DNA from: Actinomycetes bacterium
Lineage (GTDB): Bacteria; Actinomycetota; Acidimicrobiia; Acidimicrobiales; Acidimicrobiaceae
Direction of reading: 5' to 3'
Length of the DNA stretch: 45,296 nt
NCBI GenBank assembly: GCA_021777475.1
Contig: JAJYDM010000007.1
Span: 1-45,296, forward strand
Shown here: one piece after another, positions 4,290 to 23,207 of the stretch
Layout of the letters: the number at the start of each line of letters is the position of its first letter
Numbering within the stretch: position 1 is the stretch's first letter
Program-made: the position numbers and the translations under genes
The notes under the pieces: generated by a model
Told to the model about the DNA's origin: nothing
Databases searched by the model: none
The model's input: the letters and a program-made list of their open reading frames with translations, nothing else

Positions 4290-4313
4290 TTTCTCCTATC
4301 GAGATAGGACTAA
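4290..4313 (+). promoter_or_regulatory. Palindromic operator candidate upstream of sufC1
   Basis: TCCTATC-GA-GATAGGA is a perfect 7-bp inverted repeat with a 2-bp centre (4294-4309); nine of eleven positions match if the arms are extended to 4290-4313. Its centre is 25 bp before the sufC1 ATG. The oriented core CTATCGAGATAGG matches 12 of 13 positions of a palindrome upstream of sufB (21037-21060). A regulator site for iron-sulfur biogenesis is inferred; the binding protein is not encoded in the window. Confidence 0.6.
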
Positions 4314-4326
4314 TAGACTGTAGGCC

Positions 4327-5073
4327 ATGGAACGTTCGCTTTTTGCAATTGAAGACCTGCATGTGGCCGCTGGAGAGCAGGAGATCCTCAAGGGCCTGTC
4401 GCTCACTGTCAAGAAGGGGGAAGTCCATGCAATCATGGGTCCAAACGGCTCGGGCAAATCGACCCTTGCCAATACCCTGCTGGGAAACCCGGACTACGAA
4501 ATTACCTCGGGTTCCGTCCGCTTCCACGGTGAAGACATCACTCACTGGTCAACAGATGCAAGGGCTAAAGCCGGAATCTTTCTGGCGTTTCAATACCCTC
4601 AGGAAATTGCAGGTGTTTCTGTAATACAGTTTCTGCGACAGGCACTATCCGCCCGCAAGGCAACAGATGTTTCGGCAATTGAAATCCGCTTTTCAATGCT
4701 GGAATGGATGCAGAAGCTTGGCATGGACCCCTCCTTCGCACAACGGTATCTAAATGAAGGATTTTCAGGCGGAGAAAAGAAACGTAATGAGATACTTCAG
4801 ATGGCGCTCCTGGAACCCGAGGTTGCGATTTTGGATGAGACCGATTCAGGACTTGATATTGACGCCCTCCGCGTGGTTGCAAGGGGTGTCAACGAAGTGC
4901 GCAAGGAAAACTCCGACCTTGGGGTGATTCTGATCACGCACTACCAGAGAATCCTTGACGAACTCTCGCCAGATTTTGTCCACGTTATGATCGACGGAAG
5001 GATCGTCGCCTCTGGCGGGATGGAACTATCGCAAAAGCTGGAATCTGAGGGCTACGAGGGATGGAGAGAATGA
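4327..5073 (+). CDS. sufC: Fe-S cluster assembly ATPase SufC (copy 1)
   Basis: SufC is the cytosolic ABC-type ATPase of the SufBCD scaffold that builds Fe-S clusters. The 248 residues carry Walker A GPNGSGKST (38-46), a Q-loop in AFQYP (~88), signature FSGGEKKR (146-153), Walker B VAILDE with SGLDIDAL (167-181) and H-loop H205. The long FQYPQEIAGVSVIQFLRQAL helical segment and LNEGFSGGEKKR are of the usual actinobacterial SufC type. First gene of sufC1-sufS-sufU; its stop overlaps the sufS start (ATGA). sufB and sufD are not adjacent but lie 14.5 and 7 kb away, which is unusual. A second, different SufC is at 10907-11695. Confidence 0.96.
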   Translation: MERSLFAIEDLHVAAGEQEILKGLSLTVKKGEVHAIMGPNGSGKSTLANTLLGNPDYEITSGSVRFHGEDITHWSTDARAKAGIFLAFQYPQEIAGVSVIQFLRQALSARKATDVSAIEIRFSMLEWMQKLGMDPSFAQRYLNEGFSGGEKKRNEILQMALLEPEVAILDETDSGLDIDALRVVARGVNEVRKENSDLGVILITHYQRILDELSPDFVHVMIDGRIVASGGMELSQKLESEGYEGWRE

Positions 5074-6320
5074 ATACGCCCACCACTGCAACACCTTTAA
5101 ATGTGACCGAAATCCGCAAGGATTTCCCAATCTTCACCCACCAGAATGGCAAGGCTCTTTACTTCCTTGATTCTGCCGCATCTTCCCAAAAACCGCTTTC
5201 AGTTTTGCAGGCGATGGACAACTACTATTCCACAACCCATGCAAACGTTCACCGTGGGGTTTACCAAATTGCCGAACATGCCACGGAACTGTACGAAGGC
5301 GCACGAGTAAAGATAGGCCGGTTCATTGGAGCCCCTAACCCAGCACGCGAGACTATTTTTACCAAGAATGCCACCGAATCCATAAACCTGCTCTCGACAT
5401 GTCTTACGCGGGGCAGGTTGAAAAAGGGCGATGTGGTTGTTCTAACTGAGATGGAACACCATGCCAACCTGGTTCCATGGTTGATTGCAAAGGAACAGTT
5501 TGGAATTGAACTCCGCTACATAAAAGTGGACAGCGAAGGCTACCTCGCTCTCGACAACATCGACGAGATTCTTAGTGGTGCCAAAGTCCTAAGTGTGACA
5601 CTTGCTTCCAATGTCCTTGGAACGTTGCCCCCCGTTGCCCATCTTGCAGAATTGGCTCATAAGCATGGTGCCATTGTCATTGGAGATGGTGCCCAATTCG
5701 TCCCACACATGGTAACCGACGTAACCGATTTGGGCCTGGATTTTCTTGCCTTCACGGGCCACAAGATGCTGGGCCCAACTGGTATTGGGGTACTTTGGGG
5801 CAAGTCAGAACTTCTTGAGGCTCTGCCGCCTTTCATGGGCGGAGGCGATATGATCACAGACGTTACCCTTGATGGGTTCACTCCGAACGAGCTCCCGTGG
5901 AAATTTGAGGCAGGCACTCCGCCTATTGCAGAGGCCATTGGACTGGGAGCTGCAGTAGACTACCTGCAGGATCTAGGCATGCAAAATATAAGGGAACACG
6001 AAATCAAACTCCTCTCCTATGCATTCGAAAGACTTGAATCGAACTTCGGAAAGAACATAGTTATCCACGGTCCGAGAAATATTCAAGACCGAGGCGGTGT
6101 TATCTCATTTGACTTCAGAGATATTCACCCTCATGATATATCCCAAATACTCGACCAAAGCGGGGTCTGCGTCAGGGCAGGTCATCACTGTGCCAAACCT
6201 CTCATGCGGCACCTTGGAATTGCTGCAACTGCCCGAGCGTCGTTTCATATCTACAATGAGCCGGCAGATGTGGATGCTCTGGTAGATGCACTTGGTAAGG
6301 CCCAAGCTTTTTTTGGCTAG
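5070..6320 (+). CDS. sufS: Cysteine desulfurase SufS
   Basis: A PLP-dependent cysteine desulfurase (class II, SufS/CsdA type) that removes sulfur from cysteine and passes it as persulfide to SufU. Using the ATG at 5070 (ATGA overlap with the sufC1 stop, GGAGAG just upstream) the protein has 416 residues; an alternative ATG is at 5061. Visible: ATESINLL, EMEHHANLVPW, the PLP Lys in TGHKMLGPTG (about K232) and the catalytic Cys in RAGHHCAKP (about C374). Length and motifs are normal. Middle gene of the sufC1SU operon; sufU begins 18 bp downstream. Confidence 0.96.
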   Translation: MNTPTTATPLNVTEIRKDFPIFTHQNGKALYFLDSAASSQKPLSVLQAMDNYYSTTHANVHRGVYQIAEHATELYEGARVKIGRFIGAPNPARETIFTKNATESINLLSTCLTRGRLKKGDVVVLTEMEHHANLVPWLIAKEQFGIELRYIKVDSEGYLALDNIDEILSGAKVLSVTLASNVLGTLPPVAHLAELAHKHGAIVIGDGAQFVPHMVTDVTDLGLDFLAFTGHKMLGPTGIGVLWGKSELLEALPPFMGGGDMITDVTLDGFTPNELPWKFEAGTPPIAEAIGLGAAVDYLQDLGMQNIREHEIKLLSYAFERLESNFGKNIVIHGPRNIQDRGGVISFDFRDIHPHDISQILDQSGVCVRAGHHCAKPLMRHLGIAATARASFHIYNEPADVDALVDALGKAQAFFG

Positions 6321-6338: not shown

Positions 6339-6809
6339 ATGCCTGGTCTTGAAGACCTCTATAGAGAAATAATTCTCGATCACTACAGGAACCCGCGCAA
6401 CGAAGGTACGTTTCCCACTCCGCCGGCGATCAAAGCCGAGGGACACAATCCTCTGTGCGGCGACGAACTCACCGTATTTCTAATTCTGGATGGTGATGTG
6501 ATCAAAGACATTCACATCACTGGCCAGGGATGTTCTATCTCACGTTCCTCCGCTTCATTGATGTCTGTCGCAGTCAAGGGAAAGTCCCTCAAGGAGGTTG
6601 ACCACCTCTTGAAGATCTTCAAGTCGATGATGTCGATTTCCACCAATGCCAGCGGTGAACCAGAAGCAGTAGAGCCAATCGAATACTCCGAAAGGGAGTT
6701 GGGCGAGTTGATCGCACTGCAGGGTGTCGTAAAGTTCCCTGTAAGAATCAAGTGCGCAACTCTTTCATGGAATACCCTCGTTCAAGCACTTGAGGATAGG
6801 GCGAGCTGA
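6339..6809 (+). CDS. sufU: Sulfur-transfer protein SufU
   Basis: SufU is the zinc-bound sulfurtransferase that accepts sulfur from SufS in Gram-positive bacteria and actinobacteria. The 156-residue protein keeps all zinc/sulfur residues: C40 and D42 in NPLCGDE, C65 in GQGCSIS and C139 in IKCATLSW. The extra loop between them (about 80-135) separates SufU from IscU. ATG start with an AAAAGGAGAAAC ribosome site. Last gene of the operon, closed by a perfect palindrome. The SufT (DUF59) gene often found next is absent here. Confidence 0.95.
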   Translation: MPGLEDLYREIILDHYRNPRNEGTFPTPPAIKAEGHNPLCGDELTVFLILDGDVIKDIHITGQGCSISRSSASLMSVAVKGKSLKEVDHLLKIFKSMMSISTNASGEPEAVEPIEYSERELGELIALQGVVKFPVRIKCATLSWNTLVQALEDRAS

Positions 6810-10906: not shown

Positions 10907-11695
10907 TTATCTTGGAAGTCCAAAAATGTCGGCCCCAATGGCTTCTTTGAGGTCCTCGGTAATACCGTATTCGGCATATCCAGTCTTTTCCAATTGTTCG
11001 GCAAGTTCCGAGCCGCCGGTAGCAACGATCTCGCCACGTACCAATACGTGCACACGATCGGGACGAAGCTCCTTCAATAACCTGGAATAGTGGGTGATTG
11101 CCAGCACACCCAGTTGATCGTCATTGGTCGCCCTCTCCACTCTTTTTGAAACGTCGCGAAGTGCATCGATGTCCAGTCCAGAATCAATCTCGTCAAGAAC
11201 TGCAAATTTTGGCCTGAGCACTGCTAGCTGCACCATCTCGTTCCGCTTCTTCTCTCCGCCGGAGAAATCAACATTTAACGATCTTCCCAATAAAGCAAGT
11301 GGAAACCCGAGCTCATTTGCCTCCCGCAGGACGTTCTCATGGAGACCGGACGCATCTTTGGCACCGGTTTCAAATGCGGCATTCAAAGCATCTTCAAGAG
11401 AGACTCCTGGAACTTCTATGGGATACTGGGAAACAAGGAACAGTCCCGCCTGGGCTCTCTTCCATGCCGGCAAAGCAAGAATATCTTCGCCGTCTAAATG
11501 AACCGATCCACCTGTCACCTGATAGCCAGGCTTTCCCATCAGAACATGAGAAAGGGTCGATTTACCTGAGCCATTCGGACCCATTATGGCATGAACTTCT
11601 CCGCTCTTGATCTCCAGATCTATTCCACGGAGAATTTCTTTTGGACCAACATTTGCCTGCAGATTCTCTATCCTGAGTACATGCTGTAAAGTCAA
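10907..11695 (-). CDS. sufC: Fe-S cluster assembly ATPase SufC (copy 2)
   Basis: A second SufC-type ABC ATPase, 262 residues, with Walker A GPNGSGKST (39-47), Q-loop in VSQYP (~90), signature FSGGEKKR (144-151), Walker B FAVLDE with SGLDIDAL (164-179) and H202. It differs clearly from copy 1 between the Q-loop and the signature, and has a longer C-terminus. The TTG start overlaps the Rieske stop (TTGA), so translation is coupled. Third gene of sufD-Rieske-sufC2; the natural inference is that it is the ATPase partner of this SufD. Whether it replaces, competes or pairs with copy 1 in SufBC2D is open. Confidence 0.94.
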   Translation of the reverse strand: MTLQHVLRIENLQANVGPKEILRGIDLEIKSGEVHAIMGPNGSGKSTLSHVLMGKPGYQVTGGSVHLDGEDILALPAWKRAQAGLFLVSQYPIEVPGVSLEDALNAAFETGAKDASGLHENVLREANELGFPLALLGRSLNVDFSGGEKKRNEMVQLAVLRPKFAVLDEIDSGLDIDALRDVSKRVERATNDDQLGVLAITHYSRLLKELRPDRVHVLVRGEIVATGGSELAEQLEKTGYAEYGITEDLKEAIGADIFGLPR

Positions 11696-12009
11696 CTTAT
11701 CACCACCAAAACTCTGTCCCCCTCGAGGACCACGTCATAAACAGGCACTGGTTTGGTTGCCGGCAGACACGTCGGCTTGCCTGTCTCAAGTGAAAACGTT
11801 GACCCGTGTTTCCAACACTCAAGCTCTTTTTCTTCCACAAGCAGCTCACCTTCCGAAAGTGAATAGTTGGCATGGCTGCAGCGGTCGCCAATTGCGTAGA
11901 AGGTATCCTCTATTCGAACGAGTGCTATCGCAAGACCATCGGTATCAAACCTCCGTGCCGTGCCACTTGGCATATCGTCTTTGCCGCATAGATCGATCTT
12001 TCTGCTCAT
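11692..12009 (-). CDS. Rieske [2Fe-2S] ferredoxin in suf operon
   Basis: A 105-residue soluble Rieske protein of the bphF/NirD-like type. The cluster ligands are visible as CSH (Cys-x-His) and CWKH (Cys-x-x-His), about 17 residues apart. Such a protein is regularly encoded within actinobacterial suf operons, where an electron-transfer role in cluster assembly is proposed but not proven. I place the start at the ATG at 12009, which overlaps the sufD stop as ATGA; a longer frame to 12027 lies inside sufD. It overlaps sufC2 by 4 bp at its 3' end. Confidence 0.9.
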   Translation of the reverse strand: MSRKIDLCGKDDMPSGTARRFDTDGLAIALVRIEDTFYAIGDRCSHANYSLSEGELLVEEKELECWKHGSTFSLETGKPTCLPATKPVPVYDVVLEGDRVLVVIS

Positions 12010-13259
12010 TGCTGCAAATCCTCCCACTTCCTTGCCGCCAAAACCATGAGTGCACCCTTTACTCCAGGGATCTCTATCCTTTCGGCCATTTCGGCAAAAA
12101 ACCCTCCGACGATCAGCCTCTGCACCAGGTCGGGCTTGATCCCACGGCTCTCAAGGTAATATTGCTGATCCTCGTCGATCGGCCCAACTGAAGAAGCGTG
12201 GCTGCACCGTACATCATTCTCTTGTATATCAAGATTCGGAACTGAATCTGCCCGGGCTCCTTCGGAAAGAACGAGATTCTTATTCGTTTGAAAGGCGTCA
12301 GTAGAACTTGCGCCTTTGTCCACTTTGATCAATCCCGAATAGACCAGGTGCGAATCGTTTGCCGCCGCGCCTTTGAAGTAGAGTTCACTTCTGCCGTTCC
12401 TGGCGCTGTGCTCTTGAAGAGTCCTGAAGTCAAGGACCTGGTCTCTGCTGCCGAAGTAGGCGGCATTGAGACTCGAATCGGCACCTGCCCCAGCGATCGT
12501 CGAAGTTGTGAACAGCCGGGCATAGTCACCTCCCGCGACTATGGACATCGATCGCAACCTGGCATTGGCCATTAGCCGTGACGCCTGATGGCCAACCATA
12601 GTGCATTTTGGGCCAAGGTCTTGCAATAGCAGATACGAAAGACTCGACCCCTCCTCCTGGAAGATCTTCGTCATGGGCACCGCCAACAACTCTGACTCCG
12701 TCGGAGACAGCAACACCTCAATCACCTGAGCCCTAGCACCGGACTCCAACTTGATGCAGAAATTTGGGAAAACTGCAGTCGCCTTGTCGGCATCAAGATA
12801 TCTGAGGACAATCACTGGCCTGGCGGAATCGTACTTTGAAGAAATTGAGAGTGAAATCGGATGTGACAAAAGAGCGTTCAGATGCGAAAACAGATCTGCA
12901 CCCGAAAAGTCATACGCTATATCTTCTGGATCCAACAACCTCAGCGAAATTTCAGCGGGTGGCTCGAATCCAGGATCAATGATGCCGTTGTAAGTCTTGA
13001 TAACCAAAGGCTCAATACTGGCCTCCAAGACTGAGCCAGCCATAACCGAATCGGATTCCCTGACTCTTGATTGATCGAAATCTATCGAATACTTGGCGAG
13101 ATCGAGATCATCAATGCTGGAATAGCGCCACTCCTCAATTTCGGAGGTTGGCATCTCCAGCGAATCGACTGTCGCTCTGATCTCGCTGATACGTGGGGAC
13201 CCGCCATGTCTGGCTACAGCACCTTCAAGGCCTTTGGTCCATGCGCTCGAGAGTTGAAT
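12006..13259 (-). CDS. sufD: Fe-S cluster assembly protein SufD, probable ATT start
   Basis: SufD is the scaffold partner of SufB in the SufBC2D complex. Family features include EEWRY near the N-terminus, a beta-helix core, and the C-terminal EGARADSVPNLDIQENDVRCSHASSVGPIDEDQ region followed by YLESRGI. The first ATG (13154) would remove a typical N-terminal helix. The frame stays open upstream to a stop at 13269-13271 and contains no ATG or GTG there, but a perfect AAGGAG (13265-13270) sits five bases before an ATT codon (13257-13259), giving 417 residues. First gene of sufD-Rieske-sufC2, with 4-bp overlaps throughout. sufB is not adjacent. Confidence 0.9.
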   Translation of the reverse strand: MQLSSAWTKGLEGAVARHGGSPRISEIRATVDSLEMPTSEIEEWRYSSIDDLDLAKYSIDFDQSRVRESDSVMAGSVLEASIEPLVIKTYNGIIDPGFEPPAEISLRLLDPEDIAYDFSGADLFSHLNALLSHPISLSISSKYDSARPVIVLRYLDADKATAVFPNFCIKLESGARAQVIEVLLSPTESELLAVPMTKIFQEEGSSLSYLLLQDLGPKCTMVGHQASRLMANARLRSMSIVAGGDYARLFTTSTIAGAGADSSLNAAYFGSRDQVLDFRTLQEHSARNGRSELYFKGAAANDSHLVYSGLIKVDKGASSTDAFQTNKNLVLSEGARADSVPNLDIQENDVRCSHASSVGPIDEDQQYYLESRGIKPDLVQRLIVGGFFAEMAERIEIPGVKGALMVLAARKWEDLQQ

Positions 13260-13337: not shown

Positions 13338-13355
13338 CTAACAACCAGATGTTAG
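13338..13355. promoter_or_regulatory. Inverted repeat upstream of the crotonase gene
   Basis: CTAACA-ACCAGA-TGTTAG is a perfect 6+6 inverted repeat with a 6-bp centre in the sufD/crotonase divergent region, about 93 bp before the crotonase start. The size suits a TetR- or GntR-family fatty-acid regulator, but no regulator gene is nearby. Confidence 0.35.
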
Positions 13356-19560: not shown

Positions 19561-20961
19561 CTATCCGATCGAACCATCCATCTGAAGTTCGATCAACCGG
19601 CTCCATTCGACGGCATACTCCATCGGAAGCGTCCTTGTTACCGGCTCAATGAAGCCATTGACGATCAGACCCATGGCCTGTGACTCCGACAGCCCGCGAG
19701 ACATAAGATAGAACAGCTGCTCATTTCCAATCTTGGAAACTGTCGCCTCATGTCCAATCTGGGCATCGCGTTCGTTGACTTCCATATATGGCTTGGTTTC
19801 TGAAATTGAATGATCGTCAAGCAGCAAAGCGTCACATCGGACAAAGCTTCGTGAACCCTTCGCCCCCTCATCCACATGGACCAACCCTCTATATGTCGAT
19901 GTCCCCCCATCTTTGGAGATGGACTTCGAAATGATCGTAGAGCTTGTCTCTGGTGCCGCGTGAACCATCTTTGCACCGGCGTCCTGATGCTGGCCTTGTC
20001 CGGCATATGCCACTGAAAGAACTTCGCCGGAAGCCTTGGGCCCGACAAGGTACACAGCTGGATACTTCATGGTCAAACGCGAACCGATGTTGCCGTCGAT
20101 CCACTCAACCCGGGCTTCAGCCTCAGCTCGAGCCCTTTTGGTAACGAGGTTGTACACGTTGTTTGACCAGTTTTGTATTGTGGTGTAAGTAATCCTTGAA
20201 CCTGGCTTGGCGATGAGTTCCACGACTGCCGAGTGAAGGGAATCGGTTGAATAGACAGGGGCTGAACATCCCTCGATGTAGTGAACCTGCGACCCCTCGT
20301 CGGCAATTATGAGCGTACGCTCGAACTGCCCCATGTTCTCCGCATTGATCCTGAAATACGCTTGCAGCGGCATCTCAACTTTGACGCCTGGTGGTATGTA
20401 TATAAACGACCCCCCGGACCACACTGCACTGTTCAAAGCCGCAAACTTGTTGTCATTTGGGGGAATGATCGTCCCGAAATGTGCACGGACAAGATCTGGA
20501 TACTCCCGCAAAGCCGTATCCATATCGGTAAAAATAACGCCCTGCGCTGCAAGGTCTTCCCTATTCTTGTGGTACACAACCTCAGACTCGTACTGAGCTG
20601 TCACCCCAGAAAGGTACTTGCGCTCTGCCTCGGGAATTCCCAACTTTTCATAAGTGCGTTTAACCGATTCCGGAAGCTGATCCCAGGAACTCACCTGCTT
20701 TTCAGTCGGCTTTATATAGTAAAAAATATCGTTGAAATCAAGGTCAGGCATATTGACTGCGAACCATGGGAGCATAGGTTTTTTCTCAAAATACCTAAGA
20801 GAGCGCAATCTAAACTCCCGCATCCACTCAGGTTCGCCTTTCATCCAAGACATCTCTTTGACGATCTCTTGATTAAGACCCTTCTTCGGCTTAAAGACAT
20901 AGTCCTCGACATCCGCCCAACCAAGTTGATATTTGCCGAGATCTAGACCAGCTGTAGACAT
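19561..20961 (-). CDS. sufB: Fe-S cluster assembly scaffold SufB, free-standing
   Basis: SufB is the scaffold subunit on which clusters are assembled within SufBC2D. The 466 residues show the standard SufB order: N-terminal WGWADV-like segment and FRLRSLRYFEK, IYIPPGVKVEMPLQAYFRIN, IEGCSAPVYSTDSLHSAVVEL (~229-249), TIQNWSNNVYNLVTKRA, and the conserved Cys in VRCDALLLDD (C376) near GHEATVSKIG. ATG start with AGGCGG seven bases upstream. It stands alone, 7 kb from sufD and 14.5 kb from sufC1SU, closed by a shared terminator and preceded by the palindrome also found before sufC1. Confidence 0.96.
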   Translation of the reverse strand: MSTAGLDLGKYQLGWADVEDYVFKPKKGLNQEIVKEMSWMKGEPEWMREFRLRSLRYFEKKPMLPWFAVNMPDLDFNDIFYYIKPTEKQVSSWDQLPESVKRTYEKLGIPEAERKYLSGVTAQYESEVVYHKNREDLAAQGVIFTDMDTALREYPDLVRAHFGTIIPPNDNKFAALNSAVWSGGSFIYIPPGVKVEMPLQAYFRINAENMGQFERTLIIADEGSQVHYIEGCSAPVYSTDSLHSAVVELIAKPGSRITYTTIQNWSNNVYNLVTKRARAEAEARVEWIDGNIGSRLTMKYPAVYLVGPKASGEVLSVAYAGQGQHQDAGAKMVHAAPETSSTIISKSISKDGGTSTYRGLVHVDEGAKGSRSFVRCDALLLDDHSISETKPYMEVNERDAQIGHEATVSKIGNEQLFYLMSRGLSESQAMGLIVNGFIEPVTRTLPMEYAVEWSRLIELQMDGSIG

Positions 20962-21036
20962 TATCGATCCGCCTTCAGAACTTGAAAAACACCTCTTTGG
21001 ATCACTCTCACAGATATATTCTAGGGCTTTGACAAA

Positions 21037-21060
21037 TTATCCCTATCTGGATAGTAATAA
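21037..21060 (-). promoter_or_regulatory. Palindromic operator candidate upstream of sufB
   Basis: On the coding strand of sufB the core reads CTATCCAGATAGG, against CTATCGAGATAGG before sufC1. The full 24-bp element has arms matching at nine of eleven positions. Its centre is about 87 bp before the sufB ATG, overlapping a possible -35 region; TAGAAT 17-18 bp on could be the -10. A common suf regulator is inferred. Confidence 0.6.
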
Positions 21061-21143
21061 CTATGCCACTTTTTCTTGTTCTTGCCAAGACATGAACCCG
21101 GCCAAACCGAAAAAACTATAAATTTCAACTAGCCTTGGCAGGA

Positions 21144-23207
21144 ATGACAACTTTAGAAGACTTGTTCCAAAGCGCGGGCGCTCCTCCGAAAGCTGAGAAA
21201 CTCCCAGTCACCCTTACACACTTCGAAAACGATCGGATTGACGAGTACTACTGGATGCGCGATAGAGAATCGCCCAAAGTCGCCGACCTGCTCATGGAGG
21301 AAAACTCATACACGAAAAGAGTTATGAGCGAGTTGGAGGACCTGGAAAATCGTCTCTTTGGTGAAATCAGGGAGCGGGTTAAAGAGACCGACCTTTCCGT
21401 TCCCGTTCGAAAGGGCAACTACTTATACTTCTCCAAGACAGAGGAGGGAAAACAGTATCCCATTCACGTCAGAAGGAGGGTCGACAAGGAATCAGAGGAG
21501 ACACTCCTGGACGAGAATCAAGAATCCATTGGACACGATTTCTTTGCCTTGGGCGGGCTGTCGATCTCGCCAAATGAGGGCCTTATCGCTTATCTGACGG
21601 ACATTGATGGCTCTGAACTATACACTCTCACGATCCGAAATATATCGGAGCCCGAAAAGATATTGGCACAACTTGAAGAGTGCTACTACGGCATTGCATG
21701 GTCACTCGATTCCAAGTTTGTATTTTTCACAAAGACAGACACCCAGATGCGTCCCTATCAAGTATGGAGATTGGATCTCGAAGAAGGTAAAGCTGAACTG
21801 GTATTTCAAGAAGATGATGAAGGCTACTTCGTCGGGATCGGAACCACAAAGGACGACAGGTTCATAGTTGTCGACGCGGCCTCGAAAACCACTAGCCAGA
21901 TTTTCCTAATCGACGCCTACTCTCCCCTGAGACCACCAGAACGCTTCACCGAGAGAGTCAAGGGCCTGGAATACTCCATCGAGCATTGGCGAGACAAGTT
22001 CTTCGTAGTAACGAACCGCGACAATCCCGACTTTAGCCTCATGGTGGTGGACCAAGGCACCAATGACCACAGATACTGGGAACCATATCTCGAAATCACT
22101 CAAGGTGTTCGTCTGCTCGAAATTGAAGTCTTTTCCGACTTCATAGCGATAGAAGAGAGGCATCAGGCGACCACGCGACTGCGCGTAATCGACCTGCGCT
22201 CAAGAGCAATCTACGAAGTGCCCAAGACAGAAGAAGTGTCGTCAATCTACATTGGAGAGAACGAGGAGTTCGACTCCAAAGTGCTCAGATATGAATACTC
22301 TTCGATGATCACCCCCAGATCGGTCTTCGATCTTGACCTGGAATCTAGGTCATCCACTCTCCTCAAGCAGACTGAAGTATTAGGTGATTTCGCAAGCTCC
22401 AACTACACCACCTTCAGGGTCTGGGCCGATTCGAGAGACGGCACAAAGATCCCAATTTCCGTACTCTGTCGTTCAGACATCATCCCAGACGAAAAAGGCC
22501 ATCCAACCCTACTCTATGGGTATGGCTCATATGAGCACTCGATCGATCCAGCTTTCTCTTCGCTTCGACTGAGCCTCATCAATCGCGGTATGGTTTTCGC
22601 CTACGCTCACGTCCGGGGAGGCGGTGAAATGGGCCGAGCCTGGTATCTGGATGGAAAACTTGAAAATAAACCTCATACATTCACAGACTTTATCGATTGC
22701 ACCAGGGCACTCGTAGACCTGGGATGGTCCGATCCCAAAAGAATTGCGGCCAGAGGCGGAAGTGCCGGGGGCATGCTAATGGGAGCAATTGCCAATATGG
22801 CACCTGACCTTTATCGAGCCATTGTTGCCGAAGTTCCGTTTGTGGACTGTCTCACTACGATACTTGATCCCTCCCTACCCCTGACCACCTTTGAGTGGGA
22901 GGAGTGGGGCAACCCGGTTACCGACAAAACGATCTACGACATCATGAAGTCATATGCTCCCTACGAGAACGTGGTCCAAGCTCAGTACCCCTACATGCTT
23001 ATCACGGCGGGAATTAATGACCCCCGTGTCTCGTATTGGGAGCCGGCAAAGTGGGCTCAAAGACTGAGAGATAGGACAATCAACCCCAGAATCATCCTGA
23101 AAACGGAGATGGGAGCCGGCCATCAAGGCCCTTCTGGAAGATACGAGACCTGGCACGATGAAGCGTTTGTCTATGCATTCATTCTGTCAGCGCTAGAGCT
23201 TGAATAG
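21144..23207 (+). CDS. ptrB: Oligopeptidase B / prolyl oligopeptidase family (S9A) protease
   Basis: A 687-residue cytosolic serine peptidase from the ATG at 21144 (TTG at 21135 also possible; neither has an ideal ribosome site). The N-terminal PVTLTHFENDRIDEYYWMRD is the oligopeptidase B signature, followed by a seven-bladed propeller and a C-terminal alpha/beta-hydrolase domain: Ser in RGGSAGG (about 540), Asp in TAGINDPRV (about 626) and His in GAGHQGPSGR (about 660). It cuts short peptides, typically after basic residues in the oligopeptidase B branch. Divergent from sufB and isolated. Confidence 0.93.
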   Translation: MTTLEDLFQSAGAPPKAEKLPVTLTHFENDRIDEYYWMRDRESPKVADLLMEENSYTKRVMSELEDLENRLFGEIRERVKETDLSVPVRKGNYLYFSKTEEGKQYPIHVRRRVDKESEETLLDENQESIGHDFFALGGLSISPNEGLIAYLTDIDGSELYTLTIRNISEPEKILAQLEECYYGIAWSLDSKFVFFTKTDTQMRPYQVWRLDLEEGKAELVFQEDDEGYFVGIGTTKDDRFIVVDAASKTTSQIFLIDAYSPLRPPERFTERVKGLEYSIEHWRDKFFVVTNRDNPDFSLMVVDQGTNDHRYWEPYLEITQGVRLLEIEVFSDFIAIEERHQATTRLRVIDLRSRAIYEVPKTEEVSSIYIGENEEFDSKVLRYEYSSMITPRSVFDLDLESRSSTLLKQTEVLGDFASSNYTTFRVWADSRDGTKIPISVLCRSDIIPDEKGHPTLLYGYGSYEHSIDPAFSSLRLSLINRGMVFAYAHVRGGGEMGRAWYLDGKLENKPHTFTDFIDCTRALVDLGWSDPKRIAARGGSAGGMLMGAIANMAPDLYRAIVAEVPFVDCLTTILDPSLPLTTFEWEEWGNPVTDKTIYDIMKSYAPYENVVQAQYPYMLITAGINDPRVSYWEPAKWAQRLRDRTINPRIILKTEMGAGHQGPSGRYETWHDEAFVYAFILSALELE

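Follow-up and report, generated by a model that had tools for sequence, protein, structure and literature searches.

A 24-bp imperfect palindrome that precedes two distant suf units of an Acidimicrobiia genome is probably the operator of the Fe-S assembly regulon of this class, through which an autoregulated, mrp-linked and SufR-related sensor would control dispersed genes. Judging from sequence, we give this reading a probability of about 0.77. For Acidimicrobiia with a split suf locus, it defines an operator, lists a gene set and names a candidate regulator; if true, it would describe a SufR-type sensor with a different operator, a different genomic home and a wider regulon. A literature search returned no paper joining SufR with Acidimicrobi*, nor Acidimicrobiia with sufB and regulation, and the titles and abstract openings it retrieved described no comparable system.

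The window, that is, the whole 45,296-nucleotide stretch analysed, carries its suf genes in three separate units: sufC1-sufS-sufU, a lone sufB, and sufD followed by sufC2. A mycothiol-type protein is also encoded there. The features that matter for the argument are the following.

4290..4313, no strand: candidate operator of sufC1-sufS-sufU, 24-bp imperfect palindrome; found in 7/7 genus genomes, score 27.4 with a matrix from other genera
4314..4319, + strand: putative -10 TAGACT of sufC1, abutting the operator, 7 nt from the ATG, in the conserved TAATAGACTGTA block
4327..5073, + strand: sufC1 (TIGR01978, 330 bits, above cut-off)
5061..6320, + strand: sufS (TIGR01979, 529 bits, above cut-off)
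6339..6809, + strand: sufU (TIGR01994, 142 bits, above cut-off)
10907..11695, - strand: sufC2, second sufC copy, downstream of sufD (TIGR01978, 281 bits, above cut-off)
12006..13154, - strand: sufD, without operator in its own genus (TIGR01981, 217 bits, slightly below the cut-off of 222)
19561..20961, - strand: sufB (TIGR01980, 703 bits, above cut-off)
21018..21023, - strand: putative -10 TAGAAT of sufB, 13 nt downstream of the operator, in the conserved CCTAGAAT (8/8)
21037..21060, no strand: candidate operator of sufB, 24-bp imperfect palindrome; found in 8/8 genus genomes, score 28.3 with the same matrix

The sequence-only reading had pointed to a word, CTATC[C/G]AGATAGG, shared by the regions before sufC1 and sufB and lying each time inside a 24-bp imperfect palindrome. 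We indeed found it in both places, as CTATCGAGATAGG at 4296-4308 (+) and CTATCCAGATAGG at 21042-21054 (-), each read in the direction of its own gene. Its common orientation weighs little, since the element is a palindrome. The window held no further copy, as had been claimed: the complements of the two palindromes came within 2 and 3 mismatches of the word, and all remaining matches had 3. Taken alone, the short word was only mildly unusual in the window, with 25 matches at up to 3 mismatches against a shuffle mean of 15.3, and 2 of 100 shuffles reached an equally high count. In the genome as a whole (2,283,183 bases), the exact core CTATC-N2-GATAG occurred in three places, the two suf sites and one within a reading frame. 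With one mismatch allowed, the core was not commoner than its reversed control (58 vs 51), and so the evidence rests on the full 24 bp. At up to 3 mismatches, the 24-mer was found upstream of sufC1 and sufB only, and its reversed control nowhere. The two promoters share the consensus TTnnYMCTAY-N4-RTAGKnnnAA, and a pattern search of the 2.28-Mb genome hit three places, upstream of sufC1, sufB and nfu. When the window was scanned with a matrix built from other genera only (41 sites), the sufB and sufC1 palindromes took the top two ranks, and the next score was 2.4.

Conservation within the genus followed the same lines. Upstream of sufC1, all seven aligned genomes kept TTTCTCCTAYC, a variable centre and TAGGA, followed by the block with the putative -10, while the DNA immediately 5' of the conserved stretch varied among genomes. 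This alignment omits L028, whose contig ends inside the gene, and G003, which gave no sufC1 orthologue. Upstream of sufB, the eight aligned genomes (G006 gave no full sufB) shared a TTAYTACTAT...GATAGG.ATAAT block, again followed by the putative -10 block. The pattern search over nine genus genomes returned 16 places, namely eight sufB, seven sufC1 and one nfu site (in G004), and the reversed pattern returned none in any of the nine. As for nfu, its orthologue in eight genus genomes was preceded in every case by a site 42-43 nt upstream, with scores of 19.5 to 23.0.

We then turned to the class and the phylum. The pattern was present in 123 of 198 class genomes and its reverse in 10 of 198. 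Outside the class it stayed at control level: 16 of 269 phylum genomes had it, and 27 of 269 had its reverse. The proposal of a shared operator was open to refutation if the motif turned out unconserved or equally frequent in random DNA; genus, class and phylum controls gave neither result. A matrix trained on the genus only found a sufB site in 39 of 47 loci from L093 to L139, whose SufB is 71-88% identical, and in none of 33 other loci; one of these 47, L135, offers 13 bases before sufB, too short to show a site. The same scan found a sufC1 site in three other-genera loci (L102, L114 and L133). The scans of sufD regions in the genus of the window, and of Rrf2, nfu and regulator/mrp regions, used a matrix trained on the genus and SufB-locus sites, so that its own SufB count, 40 of 47, is partly circular.

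The sites also showed gene specificity. The 84 that we examined are the 83 distinct places among the class pattern matches listed and, in addition, the nfu site of G004. They are spread over 41 genomes, nearly all of the same order as the window, and all but G004 belong to the 198-genome search. Among these listed sites, 80 of 84 lay before sufC1, sufB, sufS, sufD or nfu, or between the candidate regulator and mrp/apbC. By blastp, 79 were assigned to a gene starting within 250 nt (sufB 31, sufC1 27, regulator plus mrp 15, sufS 2, sufD 2, nfu 2), and one more, L275, was assigned to sufB by its reading frame. The remaining four stayed unassigned and are about what chance would yield in 40 genomes, if 0.03 per Mb are expected under uniform composition.

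The region before sufD deserves a separate word. The sequence-only reading had seen no copy there, and a matrix scan of the upstream region likewise found none in the species or genus of the window. This did not extend to other genera, where the genus-trained matrix found a site before sufD in seven loci (L110, L112, L113, L114, L125, L126 and L129). The missing sufD operator is a trait of this genus. All eight aligned genus loci carry instead a conserved block with TAACATCTGGTTGTTA upstream of sufD (window 13339-13354, - strand), whose repeat TAACA-N6-TGTTA, exact in six of the eight, is unlike the suf operator. It could be a site for another regulator.

A candidate for the regulator came out of the same survey. 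The site between regulator and mrp emerged from a pattern search built without such sites, and accounts for 15 of the 84 examined. In the genome of the window the gene lies outside the window itself (G000:C79:16475-17167), divergent from the Fe-S carrier gene mrp/apbC. All seven divergent regulator/mrp loci of the genus carried one and the same weaker site (score 15.0). Among the 30 best regulator loci of the class, 29 faced mrp, and 20 had a site scoring at least 11, leaving 10 without. The protein begins with a winged helix, PF12840 being above cut-off in the protein of the window's genome and in three other members. It continues with a MetOD1-like output domain, above cut-off in 3/3 class members and slightly short of it in the protein of the window's genome. 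Three cysteines, C226-x12-C239-x32-C272 in its own numbering, were invariant in 13/13 sequences, and the triad was kept in 40 of 42 of a wider set; they align with the cysteines of SufR. A predicted structure (mean pLDDT 63) resembled ArsR-type chains (best E 1.5e-3), and sequence searches of the PDB gave weak matches at most, chiefly to ArsR-type chains. As the model is modest and had no PDB match at E 0.001, it supports the fold of the DNA-binding domain only.

Kinship with SufR was apparent, and so were the differences. In nine actinobacterial loci, a profile of the regulator retrieved a SufR-like protein whose gene sits immediately ahead of sufB, at E values of 2e-17 to 5e-9. In a tree of 42 proteins, the regulator clade was separate from canonical SufR (100/100), its exact placement being unsure owing to long branches. 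Paralogues with the same cysteine triad, including one in the genome of the window, branched with the regulator clade. Against the SufR model TIGR02702, three members scored 25.2, 30.5 and 32.6 bits, far below the cut-off of 178.8. The SufR operator described in cyanobacteria and S. avermitilis, CAAC-N6-GTTG (PMC8593673, PMC11995493), did not occur in the window; as a control, it was found upstream of sufB in two of the nine actinobacterial loci (Saccharothrix and Streptomyces), seven being without it. Given the model score, the separate clade and the different operator, we call the protein SufR-related. Among the families that the sequence-only reading had put forward, of which the searches covered SufR and Rrf2, SufR nevertheless fits best, being represented by a homologue with a site in its own upstream region. 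Its broader suggestion, one regulator acting through a new suf operator, gains support from the sites kept before sufC1 (7/7) and sufB (8/8) and from those before suf, nfu and regulator/mrp genes across the class, binding itself being the step we infer.

The regulator also tended to occur with the motif. With matches required to reach E 1e-30, so that six weaker ones fall away, we found it in 114 of the 123 genomes that bear the motif and in 17 of the 75 that do not. This left 17 genomes with regulator and without pattern, and nine with pattern and without regulator. The association is confounded by descent and by f21, a family without either. When its 42 genomes were excluded, the figures were 114/120 and 17/36. 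In these 42 genomes of ~1 Mb, no regulator was found at E 1e-30 and the pattern occurred in three; it is probable that this small-genome family lost the regulation.

A binder from the Rrf2 family, IscR-like, was an alternative, and in fact our first candidate. The genome of the window encodes three Rrf2 proteins, all of which match the IscR model, below its cut-off. Counted at E 1e-6 or better (seven weaker matches among those listed being dropped), Rrf2, too, co-occurred with the motif, in 113/123 motif-bearing vs 27/75 motif-less genomes, or 113/120 vs 27/36 without f21, so that co-occurrence alone is not decisive and the sites decide. In G043, an Rrf2 gene even stands opposite sufC1 with a site between them. 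An operator near the rrf2/iscR gene, reflecting autoregulation, is typical of IscR. Yet none of the three Rrf2 loci of the window's genome had a site scoring at least 5, and across the class none was found at 30 Rrf2 genes scanned, the best score being -4.2, and Rrf2 was dropped after these upstream scans. Moreover, seven genomes combined the motif with a SufR-like gene and gave no Rrf2 match at E 1e-6, and the Rrf2 genes beside sufC1 (G043) and near sufB (L108) encode no three-cysteine stretch, as judged by eye from their translations. Both had looked promising at first; the L108 gene is followed, by eye, by sulfate-type ABC transporter-like genes. We therefore regard an Rrf2 regulator, one of the families suggested from the sequence, as improbable. 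Two Rrf2 proteins of the window's genome, L053:1441-2535 (C72, 364 aa) and L054:943-1905 (C109, 320 aa), have a C-terminal stretch of ~200 residues with no Pfam match.

It is just as improbable that the palindrome is bound by yet another protein, either the SufR-like paralogue of the same genome (C72:3983-4546) or a member of a family such as DtxR or Fur. The paralogue does have the same cysteine triad, but no site scoring at least 5 turned up in the opening 8 kb of C72, where it lies (L091), and it is the regulator/mrp intergenic site that recurs throughout the class. Incidentally, the paralogue (L212) shares its contig with one of the two extended Rrf2 genes. We consider it very unlikely that the palindrome is no operator at all and instead matches by chance, is simply part of a promoter or forms a structure in RNA. 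The mild enrichment of the short word in the window would be in keeping with chance; the reversed controls (0/9 genus genomes; 10/198 vs 123/198 class genomes) and the gene specificity of 80 of the 84 listed sites examined are not. A sigma-70 consensus scan found no promoter around sufC1, and around sufB three weak ones, none with TAGAAT. An Rfam scan of the window returned nothing but one tRNA, away from the operators, and both window sites, lying upstream of the putative -10s, are probably not transcribed with suf.

The preferred reading, an operator bound by the mrp-linked, SufR-related sensor, can be put in mechanistic terms. What the DNA and proteins show directly is where the sites lie, how well they are conserved, which genes they accompany, that the regulator is homologous to SufR and that it has the cysteine triad; binding to the site, carriage of a cluster, and repression are what we infer. 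Two regulator molecules would pair and contact the 24-bp palindrome with their ArsR-type winged helices, while Cys226, Cys239 and Cys272 of the output domain would carry an Fe-S cluster. Loaded with the cluster, it would occupy the sufC1-sufS-sufU, sufB, nfu and sufR/mrp promoters and block RNA polymerase; upon iron or cluster shortage, the cluster would be lost and the genes released. The regulator would thereby control its own gene too. The positions of the operators relative to the putative -10s would suit a repressor blocking RNA polymerase, as SufR is described elsewhere (PMC8593673, PMC6034842). The sufB operator lies upstream of its putative -10, a geometry that would also allow activation.

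The SufR-related regulator probably works like SufR. As described for SufR of Synechocystis, Rv1460, Streptomyces avermitilis and Corynebacterium glutamicum, it has an N-terminal winged helix and C-terminal cysteines starting with C-x12-C; those reported for Rv1460 are C203, C216 and C244 (PMC6034842), and those of cyanobacterial SufR follow C-X12-C-X13-C-X14-C (PMC8593673). Like SufR, it would have suf genes as targets, and a site stands upstream of its own gene. Unlike SufR, it belongs to a separate clade, is encoded beside mrp and not sufB, is paired with a 24-bp operator in place of CAAC-N6-GTTG, and would act on several units, nfu and mrp among them. The idea that a single Fe-S sensor governs the genes of Fe-S assembly recalls IscR, as presented in PMC8593673; the DNA-binding family differs, however, and the Rrf2 genes scanned were without such a site. 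A further likeness, drawn from its description, is to RisR, which coordinates the dispersed Fe-S biogenesis machineries of Myxococcus xanthus (PMC9973013), in that one regulator would again govern dispersed machineries. Unlike the present case, M. xanthus, a delta-proteobacterium, is described there as having two, ISC and SUF.

How far the regulon reaches is a more speculative matter. G021, a genome from another family, had five sites among the matches listed, at sufB (by eye) and at genes for a SufC-type ABC protein, a SufBD-family protein, a ferritin and an imelysin. The ferritin and imelysin sites are those of L341 and L343, and the ferritin gene faces a solute-binding-protein gene. These sites hint, in one genome, that the regulon may have grown to iron storage and uptake. 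It is conceivable, though less likely than not, that the clade of mrp-linked SufR relatives is a class-wide Fe-S regulator with its own 24-bp operator, extended in some families to iron storage and uptake and acting there as a master iron regulator. An Actinomycetes MAG (L149:687-1403) has a regulator of the new type divergent beside sufB, the operator being absent; it possibly links the regulator clade to suf outside Acidimicrobiia.

Finally, the sufB operator of the window also lies ~75 nt upstream of a divergent gene for an S9 (prolyl oligopeptidase) peptidase (21135-23207). Eight sufB sites among the 84 examined, including that of the window (L002) and L200, precede or share the intergenic space with a divergent S9 peptidase gene, seven of them being labelled so in the gene assignment, and the peptidase may be co-regulated with sufB.
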